Shown: one piece after another, positions 13,573-54,446 of the stretch | How the letters are laid out: every line of letters starts with the position of its first letter | How positions within the stretch are numbered: position 1 is the first letter of the stretch | The notes under the pieces: model-generated | Database searches by the model: none | What the model saw: the letters and a program-made list of their open reading frames with translations, nothing else | Told to the model about the DNA's origin: nothing | Translations under genes and position numbers: made by a program | Assembly (NCBI RefSeq): GCF_035975855.1 | Contig: NZ_CP109055.1 | Location: 6,076,001 to 6,140,000 of the forward strand | From: Streptomyces sp. NBC_01304 | GTDB lineage: Bacteria > Actinomycetota > Actinomycetes > Streptomycetales > Streptomycetaceae | Length of the DNA: 64,000 nt | Reading direction: 5' to 3'

Positions 13573-13838
13573 GGCTGTGAAGCCCCCTTCACCGGCAGGA
13601 ACGTGCCGGACGATCCGAGTAAAGGTGGTGGCCCGCTCCGCTGGATCGCGGGGCGAGTGGTGTAGTCCAGTGCCTGGACTGCGGCTGACGGTACCTGGCG
13701 GGTGGGCCGGTGTCAGTAGGCGTGTGCGAATTTGTGGGATCCACCCGGTGTGGGCCGGGGCAACTCCGTGGCCGGTCACGAAGGGCTCTGTGTAGAGTGT
13801 TGAAGCCTCTTCCGTACGGGTTCGCCCATGCGTCGCAG
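13573..13838. promoter_or_regulatory. Divergent promoter region msiK / tRNA-Thr
   Basis: 266 bp between msiK and the tRNA. TAGAGT at 13793-13798 is a plausible -10 for the tRNA transcript. No clear operator was found for msiK. Confidence 0.45.
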
Positions 13839-13915
13839 GCCTCCTTAGCTCAGCTGGCCAGAGCAACGCACTTGTAATGCGTAGGTCATCGGTTCGAATC
13901 CGATAGGGGGCTCCA
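13839..13915 (+). tRNA. tRNA-Thr (anticodon UGU)
   Basis: Cloverleaf with acceptor GCCTCCT pairing AGGGGGC, the anticodon stem-loop with TGT at 13873-13875, the T-loop GGTTCGAATCC, discriminator T and an encoded CCA (13913-13915). It reads ACA codons. Confidence 0.96.
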
Positions 13916-20120: not shown

Positions 20121-20211
20121 TTCCCCTCCCCGCCCCTTCCCGAAAGTCCTGCGGACAGCCTGGGGCTTCGCCCCTGGCCCCCTTTGTCCTCAAACGCCGG
20201 ACGGGCTGATT
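20121..20211 (+). repeat. Dispersed intergenic repeat, forward copy 1
   Basis: C-rich arm (CCCCTCCCCGCCCCTTCCCG) at about 20123-20142, then a variable middle with a GGGGCTTCGCCCC hairpin, then the core box CAAACGCCGGACGGGCTGA ending at about 20209. Same family as the copies at 25850, 30397, 38703, 43455, 47803, 54073 and 57121. Confidence 0.88.
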
Positions 20212-52448: not shown

Positions 52449-52602
52449 GTCTGCCTACTCCCAGGGGTGTGGTCCGGTGTGGTCCGGTGTGATCCATCTC
52501 GCGGTTCGGACGACTATCTCAACGGTTGGGGCCTTCGGTTACAGTCTTGAACAACGCAGATGACCACCGCATGCCGGGGGTCCCTGCTGACAACCGAATA
52601 CC

Positions 52603-52713
52603 GCTCATCCAGAGGGGCAGAGGGAAACGGCCCGTTGAAGCCCCGGCAACCCTCCAGTCAGTACTCGCTGCGCGACGCGAGGCCCTGACTCGGGAAGGTG
52701 CCAAATCCGTCTC
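52603..52713 (+). ncRNA. SAM-I (S-box) riboswitch
   Basis: S-box leader with the conserved elements in order: TCATCCAGAGGGGCAGAGGGA (start at 52604, kink-turn region), CGGCCCGTTGAAGCCCCGGC at about 52628-52647, a variable hairpin GTCAG...CTGAC (P3/P4 side), then GGGAAGGTGCCAAATCC at about 52692-52708. It lies directly upstream of the threonine-synthase-family gene. SAM binding should lower expression. The hairpin at 52714-52730 and the spacing to the start suggest control of translation or short-range termination. The 5' boundary is approximate. Confidence 0.92.
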
Positions 52714-52730
52714 ATGGCGACGTTCGCCAT
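52714..52730 (+). promoter_or_regulatory. Hairpin between riboswitch and start codon
   Basis: ATGGCGA (52714-52720) pairs with TCGCCAT (52724-52730), right after the aptamer; it could be part of the expression platform. There is no U-tract, so it is unlikely to be a classical terminator. Confidence 0.5.
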
Positions 52731-52761
52731 GAGGAAGATGAGGAGAAAGGGCCTCGCCATC

Positions 52762-54072
52762 ATGGCTGTACAGACTGTTGAAGCCGCTACGACCTCCGTC
52801 GAAGGCGCTGCGAACACCGTCGATCTCGGACCTGCCTCCGGACTCTCCTGTCGCGAATGCGGCGAGCGCTTCGCGCTCGGTCCCATTTTCGCCTGTGAAC
52901 TGTGTTTCGGCCCGCTCGAGGTCGCGTACGACCTCCCCGTCGGTGACCCCGAGGCGCTGCGCAAGAAGATCGAGTCCGGCCCGGAGAACATCTGGCGCTA
53001 CGCGCCGCTCCTGCCCGTCCCCGCGGACGTCACCGACAAGCCGAACCTGAACCCGGGCTGGACCAAGCTGGTCAAGGCCGACAACCTCGGGCGCGAACTC
53101 GGCGTCGAGCCGGGCAAGTTGTTCGTCAAGGACGACTCCGGCAACCCGACGCACTCCTTCAAGGACCGCGTCGTCGCCCAGGCCCTCGAGGCCGCCCGCG
53201 CCTTCGGATTCACCACGCTCTCCTGCTCCTCCACGGGCAACCTCGCGGGTGCCGTCGGCGCCGCGGCCGCCCGCGCCGGATTCCGCTCCTGCGTCTTCAT
53301 CCCGCACGACCTGGAGCAGGGCAAGGTCGTCAGCGCCGCGGTGTACGGCGGCGAGCTCGTCGCCATCGACGGCAACTACGACGACGTGAACCGCTTCTGC
53401 TCCGAGCTCATCGGCGACCCGCTGGGCGAGGGCTGGGGCTTCGTCAACGTCAATCTGCGCCCGTACTACGGCGAGGGCTCCAAGACCCTCGCGTACGAGA
53501 TCTGCGAGCAGCTCGGCTGGCAGCTGCCCGACCAGCTGGTCATCCCGATCGCCTCGGGCTCCCAGCTCACGAAGATCGACAAGGGTCTGCAGGAGCTCAT
53601 CAAGCTGGGCCTCGTCGAGGACAAGCCGTACAAGATCTTCGGTGCCCAGGCCGAGGGCTGCTCGCCGGTGTCCGTCGCCTTCAAGGCCGGCCACGACGTC
53701 GTACGGCCGCAGAAGCCGAACACCATCGCCAAGTCCCTCGCGATCGGCAACCCGGCGGACGGTCCGTACGTCCTGGACATCGCGCGCCGCACGGGTGGTG
53801 CGATCGAGGACGTGAACGACGAGCAGGTCGTCGAGGCGGTCAAGCTGCTCGCCCGGACCGAGGGGATCTTCGCGGAGACCGCCGGTGGTGTGACGGTGGG
53901 CGTGACCAAGAAGCTGGTCGAGGCCGGGCTCATCGACCCGACCCTCACGACGGTCGTGCTGAACACGGGTGACGGGCTCAAGACCCTCGACGCCGTTGCC
54001 GAGACCTCGCAGGCCACTGCCGTGATCAAGCCTTCGCTGGACGCGTTCCGTGCGGCTGGTCTCGACAGCTGA
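52762..54072 (+). CDS. thrC: Threonine-synthase-family PLP enzyme, riboswitch-controlled; possible homocysteine synthase
   Basis: Fold-type II PLP enzyme of 436 residues annotated by family as threonine synthase (O-phosphohomoserine to threonine). A zinc-ribbon-like start has C30/C33 and C45/C48; the PLP Lys is K134 in NPTHSFKDRV; the phosphate loop is SSTGNLAGAVGA. The product may not be threonine: the gene is under a SAM riboswitch, which normally controls methionine genes, and its partner is a sulfur carrier. O-phosphohomoserine could then be the acceptor for carrier sulfide, giving homocysteine. ATG 52762 is preferred to in-frame ATG 52714, which lies in the riboswitch hairpin. The symbol names the family only. 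Confidence 0.85.
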   Translation: MAVQTVEAATTSVEGAANTVDLGPASGLSCRECGERFALGPIFACELCFGPLEVAYDLPVGDPEALRKKIESGPENIWRYAPLLPVPADVTDKPNLNPGWTKLVKADNLGRELGVEPGKLFVKDDSGNPTHSFKDRVVAQALEAARAFGFTTLSCSSTGNLAGAVGAAAARAGFRSCVFIPHDLEQGKVVSAAVYGGELVAIDGNYDDVNRFCSELIGDPLGEGWGFVNVNLRPYYGEGSKTLAYEICEQLGWQLPDQLVIPIASGSQLTKIDKGLQELIKLGLVEDKPYKIFGAQAEGCSPVSVAFKAGHDVVRPQKPNTIAKSLAIGNPADGPYVLDIARRTGGAIEDVNDEQVVEAVKLLARTEGIFAETAGGVTVGVTKKLVEAGLIDPTLTTVVLNTGDGLKTLDAVAETSQATAVIKPSLDAFRAAGLDS

Positions 54073-54148
54073 TTTTTCCCCCACCCCGCCCCTTCCCGTA
54101 AGGCTGCCGCCGGCTTCAAAAGATGTCCTCAAACGCCGGACGGGCTGG
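54073..54148 (+). repeat. Dispersed repeat inside the thrC-like/sulfur-carrier operon
   Basis: TTTTTCCCCCACCCCGCCCC begins one base after the stop; GTAAGGCTGCCGCCGGC subtype; core box 54126-54148 ending in GGGCTGG. The copy separates the two genes of the riboswitch operon by about 95 bp. Confidence 0.92.
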
Positions 54149-54167
54149 ATCTAGACAGGTGAACACC

Positions 54168-54446
54168 ATGAGCGTGAACGTCCGCATCCCCACCATCCTG
54201 CGCACCTACACCGGCGGCCGGGCCGAGGTCGCGGCCGAGGGGGCCACCCTCGCCGATGTCATCGCCGACCTGGAGAAGAACCACTCCGGGATCGCCGCCC
54301 GCGTCCTGGACGACCAGGGCAAGCTGCGTCGCTTCGTGAACGTGTACGTGAACGACGACGACGTCCGCTTCGAGCAGGGCCTCGCCACCGCGACCCCGGA
54401 CGGTGCGGGCGTCTCGATCATCCCCGCGGTCGCCGGCGGTTGCTGA
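54168..54446 (+). CDS. MoaD/ThiS-family sulfur-carrier protein ending Gly-Gly-Cys
   Basis: Ubiquitin-fold carrier of 92 residues: VRIPTILRTYTGGRAEV start, TLADVIADLEKNHSGI helix, FVNVYVNDDDVRFEQGLAT, then IIPAVAGGC. Carriers work through a C-terminal Gly-Gly thiocarboxylate; the extra Cys means it must first be trimmed, as for QbsE/PdtH-type carriers processed by a JAMM protease. ATG 54168 has AGGTG 7 bases upstream; GTG 54159 is possible. Position after the thrC-like gene and the shared SAM riboswitch suggest sulfide delivery for methionine synthesis, not molybdopterin. Confidence 0.87.
   Translation: MSVNVRIPTILRTYTGGRAEVAAEGATLADVIADLEKNHSGIAARVLDDQGKLRRFVNVYVNDDDVRFEQGLATATPDGAGVSIIPAVAGGC

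Follow-up and report, generated by a model that had tools for sequence, protein, structure and literature searches.

The closest described system is the MetM/MetO route of Streptomyces, in which, according to what Hasebe and colleagues are said to have found in 2024, metO lies downstream of metM and the MetO thiocarboxylate is the sulfur donor. The passages of PMC12172450 on this route describe the Streptomyces MetM of Hasebe et al. as a homocysteine synthase that converts O-phosphohomoserine to homocysteine; in S. albulus, a SAM riboswitch lies upstream of metM, metO is a gene of the sulfur-carrier family, and MetM prevents methionine auxotrophy. The original report cited there is that of Hasebe, Adachi, Maruyama and Hamano (2024, Appl Environ Microbiol 90:e01247-24), and the suspicion of an earlier, sequence-only reading of the present DNA that such a route had recently been reported in Streptomyces was thus well founded. 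According to the same passages, a homologue from Microcystis with 51.6% identity to MetM of S. albulus formed threonine in vitro, and methionine in cells was not increased by it. One function should therefore not be assumed for every distant MetM relative.

A second related system is CysO/CysM/Mec of Mycobacterium tuberculosis (3dwg, 3dwm). Its structure 3dwg contains the nearest solved relative, by sequence, of the carrier described here, namely chain C (E 9e-31), which is named "9.5 kDa culture filtrate antigen cfp10A" and which we take to be CysO; in that entry, cysteine synthase B is chain A. The system includes the JAMM protease Mec, which acts on CysO-Cys. It follows a logic similar to that of the present locus, pairing a PLP enzyme of fold II and a phosphorylated amino acid with the thiocarboxylate of a carrier. 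However, CysM makes cysteine from O-phosphoserine, and the genome studied here has its own cysM, cysO and Prok-JAB gene together in one separate region. A protein-thiocarboxylate methionine pathway with a JAMM-trimmed carrier was reportedly found in Wolinella succinogenes by Krishnamoorthy and Begley in 2011. That pathway is said to use O-acetylhomoserine and a fold-I MetY enzyme, whereas here the enzyme is of fold II and, by resemblance to MetM, would use O-phosphohomoserine; the likeness is that a protein thiocarboxylate donates the sulfur for homocysteine. Finally, canonical threonine synthase, ThrC (2zsj, 6cgq, 1uim, 2d1f), whose acceptor substrate is O-phosphohomoserine, is of the same sequence family as MetM and has the same SFKDR lysine motif.

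We analysed a 64,000-nt window of contig NZ_CP109055.1 of Streptomyces sp. NBC_01304, in which three elements follow one another on the forward strand. The first is a SAM (S-box, SAM-I) riboswitch aptamer at 52602–52744, a full-length match to RF00162 (model positions 1–108 of 108) that scored 77.4 bits against a gathering score of 44.4 (E 1.8e-16). The second is metM (52762–54072), which encodes a 436-residue protein assigned by profile and structure-database sequence matches as a homocysteine synthase of threonine-synthase ancestry, its function being read from its resemblance to S. albulus MetM. The protein passes the NCBIfam thrC model TIGR00260 (272.6 bits, cut-off 167.1), matches PF00291 and resembles the solved ThrCs 2zsj and 6cgq. 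After a 95-nt spacer, metO (54168–54446, starting with ATG) encodes a ThiS/CysO-like sulfur carrier of 92 residues that matches Pfam ThiS with 61.4 bits and ends in IIPAVAGGC, that is, in AVAGG plus one cysteine. The sequence-only reading had proposed an S-box aptamer, a fold-II PLP enzyme with threonine-synthase likeness and a MoaD/ThiS-like carrier ending GGC; these scores bear out all three, and the positions it gave for them were correct within one base.

These results indicate, with a high degree of confidence, that the locus is the metM-metO pair of Streptomyces, a SAM-controlled homocysteine route with MetO thiocarboxylate as the donor. The locus is real and was correctly read, and its route is already known: it shares with the published system the threonine-synthase-like homocysteine synthase, the metO carrier, the riboswitch before metM as in S. 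albulus, and the Streptomyces host, and no difference of substance was found from that system as PMC12172450 presents it. What is observed at the locus and in the genome comprises the genes, the riboswitch, a separate thrC, the failure to find metX or metA, clade-specific residues and a recurrent gene order. MetM was 76–87% identical by tblastn to its counterparts in the 11 other same-genus genomes drawn and at most 93% identical to those in the tree set, figures that refer to these two samples.

The reading frame of the enzyme is mechanically open from 52714, i.e., from within the aptamer, and the likely start of metM is ATG 52762 (MAVQTVEA...). SCO4293 and SCO4294 are, by gene order, presumably the S. 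coelicolor counterparts of this pair. A table in PMC5839063 gives for SCO4293 an ARG-box containing ATGGCTGTGCAGAC at position −7, which fits a start at ATG 52762 if SCO4293 is the metM orthologue. A paper on AfsS (PMC2267785) also tabulates the two genes together among those of sulfate assimilation, in keeping with the homocysteine reading.

When 150 of the 613 first-look candidates in the 10.99 Mb genome were scored, this riboswitch, which stands in front of metM, was the single match to RF00162. The 5′ strand of its P1 helix (CTCATC, 52604–52609, forward strand) was read from the sequence, and its 3′ strand (GATGAG) runs into a candidate Shine-Dalgarno sequence, GAGGAG, the two together spanning 52737–52745 on the same strand. 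In all 12 same-genus leaders, both P1 strands are present and the 3′ strand enters GAGGAG in this way, and the motif pair was found in 72 of 78 named Streptomyces loci with a full-length metM. P1 stabilised by SAM would mask part of the candidate Shine-Dalgarno sequence and so act as a translational off-switch, a shut-off suggested by the continuity of the P1 3′ strand with GAGGAG in the 12 leaders. The 16 nt between this sequence and ATG 52762 are a long spacing.

Within that spacing, GGGCCTCGC (52749–52757, forward strand) is complementary to GCGAGGCCC at 52677–52685 on the P3 side of the aptamer, and the two could form an alternative helix. This nine-base complementarity recurs in the same or a near form in most of 74 Streptomyces leaders. 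The mean longest match was 9, compared with 6.6 in shuffled spacers, and 5.7% of the shuffles reached at least 9, the rows being related to one another.

To see how the locus is distributed, we surveyed 396 Actinomycetota genomes, with scoring limited in each genome to a few top first-look candidates. MetM-type genes were called in 139 of these genomes (E ≤ 1e-60, three genomes with only 35–37% matches, G034, G179 and G304, having been dropped before counting), a JAMM gene in 264 (E ≤ 1e-3; 240 of these pass the cut-off) and an S-box in 199. A metX-like gene was called in 150 genomes at E ≤ 1e-40, a threshold that may take in other acyltransferases; TIGR01392 exceeded its own cut-off in none of the 396 genomes and in none of 14 controls. 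The S-box was present in 110 of the 139 metM genomes. With kinship ignored, metM and metX occurred together more rarely than expected by chance (both in 37 genomes, metM alone in 102, metX alone in 113; odds ratio 0.46, p 7e-4). A JAMM gene accompanied metM in 132 of 139 genomes and was present in 132 of the 257 without metM (odds ratio 17.9, kinship again ignored), but JAMM goes with CysO/CysM too. All 12 same-genus genomes drawn, our own included, had metM, a JAMM gene and exactly one S-box, and 4 of them had metX. Against the homocysteine reading of metM-metO stands the fact that metX is found in those 37 metM genomes as well, the 4 same-genus ones among them.

Loci from 112 of the 139 metM genomes were taken for closer comparison. 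An S-box lies directly upstream of metM on the same strand in 85 of them, at a distance of 8 to 269 nt from where the metM match begins. One of the 27 loci without an S-box at the gathering score (L070, genome G233) has a T-box instead, at 2693–2991 with 102.9 bits. The usual T-box specifier register lies one base after GAA. In this T-box, the specifier loop is GAACAUGCUCC (GAA-C-AUG-C), so that in the usual register the specifier is AUG, for methionine, while a shift of one base would give ACA, for threonine. The carrier downstream of metM at the same locus has a broken-looking end, AVAWG, which may be an assembly fault.

Could MetM in the cell draw mostly on free sulfide or on CysO, the adjacent carrier being dispensable or having another client? 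By tblastn at E 1e-3, 22 of the 112 metM loci, including L144 (genome G204), have no adjacent carrier, some of them lying near contig ends, and this count also weighs against the metM-metO homocysteine reading itself. In addition, the genome encodes a second, similar carrier: cysO (L023, 6920–7255), which ends in GGSV, sits beside a cysM that matches 3dwg_A with E 1e-148. On the other hand, 90 of the 112 loci keep a same-strand carrier immediately after metM, most of them with an S-box before metM, and we consider it unlikely that sulfide or CysO supplies most of the sulfur.

The sequence-only reading considered a trimming of the GGC tail to be of interest. In this genome, the last glycine codon, the extra cysteine codon and the stop (GGT TGC TGA) occupy 54438–54446 on the forward strand. 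Among 80 named Streptomyces loci, which were the top-ranking 80 of 247 with a GGC-ended query and are biased accordingly, the carrier ends in bare GG in 53 and in GGC in 27, with no other end; the commonest end codons are GGC TGA and GGC TGC TGA. Across the 90 Actinomycetota metM loci with a carrier, the tail is bare GG in 63, with A added in 5, C in 5 (our own included) and R in 2; a further 12 tails were seen once each, and 3 were unclear (L070, L097 and L120). In a quickly built MetM tree with 79 rows, seven changes of tail state occur, and at least five of them are forced by starred branches. The Gly-Gly-Cys end is no hallmark: it was rejected as a defining, conserved signature because of the 53 bare ends and the at least five state changes, and it is instead a one-codon extension that comes and goes. 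A single CTG slippage, GGCTGA to GGCTGCTGA, would explain the switching between GG and GGC. One CTG added at GGCTGA yields a cysteine codon, which would account for the extra residue always being cysteine in Streptomyces with no function needed.

It might still be argued that the Gly-Gly-Cys end is itself functional, for example through a cysteine thiol in sulfur transfer, and is not a removable extension. Cysteine is, after all, the sole extension in the (biased) set of 80 Streptomyces loci, and 86 of the 120 best carrier matches end in GGC, a proportion to be read with the GGC end of the query in mind. Against this idea, bare GG predominates in the same 80 loci and the state changes repeatedly on the tree, other Actinomycetota have tails that include A, R, S, AA, QA and STDDGV, and the Streptomyces pattern is what one slippage event would produce. 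We regard a functional cysteine as very improbable.

We favour a removable extension for MetO, and the question then arises of what would remove it. Sulfur carriers of the QbsE/HcyS/PdtH type are trimmed by JAMM proteases, and MetO, with one cysteine after GG, has an extended tail as in those carriers. A PF14464 search found one Prok-JAB (JAMM) gene in the genome, with an intact HxHx7SxxD metal motif; it lies 3.7 kb from cysO, in the same region as cysM and far from metO in the chromosome. CysO would also need trimming to form a thiocarboxylate end, as Ser-Val follows its GG, and the single Prok-JAB protease may trim both carriers. The distribution of tails does not prove trimming, because JAMM is near-universal with extended and bare tails alike (23 of 24 and 60 of 63 genomes, respectively, with L070, L097 and L120 left out) and does not discriminate between them; it is compatible with a protease that CysO requires in any case and that may also act in product release. 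In the open literature on sulfur carriers together with Streptomyces, phosphohomoserine or JAMM, most subscription journals lying outside it, we found no GGC tail and no JAMM step for MetO. We tentatively suggest, as a conjecture that falls somewhat short of an even bet, that the GGC end of MetO is a slippage-switchable pro-form, chemically the same as a carrier with an attached cysteine, which a Mec-type JAMM protease would accept without new specificity, and that the one such protease found in the genome matures both CysO and MetO and releases both products.

The spacer between metM and metO also holds a copy (54128–54149, forward strand) of a dispersed 22-nt repeat, CTCAAACGCCGGACGGGCTGGA and near copies, detected by a repeat scan of the window. 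At up to 3 mismatches, the window contains 12 copies, compared with 0.01 expected, at 20189, 25905, 25929, 30401, 38759, 38811, 43511, 43546, 47854, 54128, 57228 and 57259, among which there are three facing pairs. Exact 20-nt copies occurred in 7 of 245 loci compared, all from this same genome, and the repeat was not found in the metM-metO spacers of 80 named Streptomyces loci. Elsewhere in the window, an msiK RNA motif (RF01747, 50.4 bits) lies at 13578–13633 on the reverse strand, beside a tRNA gene at 13839–13912.

Is MetM perhaps a second threonine synthase, an isoenzyme whose riboswitch merely balances threonine against methionine? It does score well above the thrC cut-off, and the passages of PMC12172450 already mentioned report threonine formation by the cyanobacterial homologue; they also present the Streptomyces MetM as a homocysteine synthase. 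A check proposed by the sequence-only reading, the search for a second canonical thrC, was positive: a separate thrC (314 bits) adjoins hom (560 bits) and a GHMP-family kinase that is likely thrB (L024), and metM as the sole threonine synthase was rejected on this ground. We also aligned 112 MetM relatives from distinct Actinomycetota genomes with three ThrCs, namely the genome's own and the matching segments of 2zsj and 6cgq. Both groups have SFKDR and many glycines in common. At 24 columns, however, one residue is shared by the three ThrCs and a different one by at least 95% of the 112 MetM rows, so that the residue comparison with true ThrC, which the earlier reading had also suggested, separates the two. 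The changes from ThrC to MetM include STGNT to STGNL, N to R at 233, R to Y at 236 and GNA to ASG at 264–266. Moreover, four N-terminal cysteines (C30, C33, C45 and C48), each kept in at least 99% of the MetM rows, belong to a segment that has no counterpart in any of the three aligned ThrCs. MetM-type proteins are, by sequence, a separate clade with changed motifs, and these changes may alter substrate use. Finally, metM leaders sense SAM or, in one genome, probably tRNA-Met, and the isoenzyme explanation strikes us as highly improbable.

The genome's methionine genes agree with a homocysteine synthase. A metX model gave only two weak local matches of about 55 positions in the genome, so the metX search that the earlier reading called for yielded no metX beyond these, and a metA model gave no match. 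Its proposal that the enzyme turns O-phosphohomoserine into homocysteine is supported by the account of Streptomyces MetM in PMC12172450, by the separate thrC, by the failure to find metX or metA and by the residue differences from ThrC. The search for alternative homocysteine routes covered metX, metA and the cystathionine enzymes; cystathionine gamma-synthase and gamma-lyase are both present above their cut-offs, and the genome may hold another homocysteine route, through these enzymes or the DUF39 pathway.

That the carrier serves molybdopterin synthesis only, as its membership of the ThiS/MoaD family might suggest, was rejected and deserves hardly any credence, since four ThiS-family genes were found, of which two, besides metO (GGC) and cysO (GGSV), lie elsewhere with bare GG ends (PPFAGG and VQGG), the solved structure most similar to the carrier belongs to an entry that also contains cysteine synthase B, and metO sits behind metM and an S-box.

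For the metM-metO route, we propose the following sequence of events. The extra cysteine of MetO would be removed first, most likely by the Prok-JAB protease encoded near cysO-cysM. MetO would then be activated, probably by a ThiF-rhodanese protein of the MoeZ type; ThiF has three matches in the genome, of which the strongest bears a rhodanese domain. MetM, a diverged threonine synthase, would swap the phosphate of O-phosphohomoserine for the sulfur of MetO thiocarboxylate to give homocysteine. The Prok-JAB protease may also free carrier-bound homocysteine, as Mec is said to do for CysO-Cys in M. tuberculosis. SAM, the end product, would act on the S-box to shut the operon, with P1 probably formed so as to occlude the ribosome-binding site.

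The MetM/MetO route explains how Streptomyces without a recognised homoserine acyltransferase of the usual kind can form methionine. Since this metM passes a threonine-synthase model, such genes are easily misnamed, and the residue differences at the 24 columns could separate them. To the published route, the present analysis adds the slippage account of the GGC tail, a possible methionine T-box on a metM orthologue, and the finding of one JAMM gene in a genome with two carriers, both extended. With the tail result, it can be tested cheaply whether cysteine and methionine are served by a single JAMM protease; if they are, the shared protease would tie cysteine and homocysteine synthesis to one enzyme.
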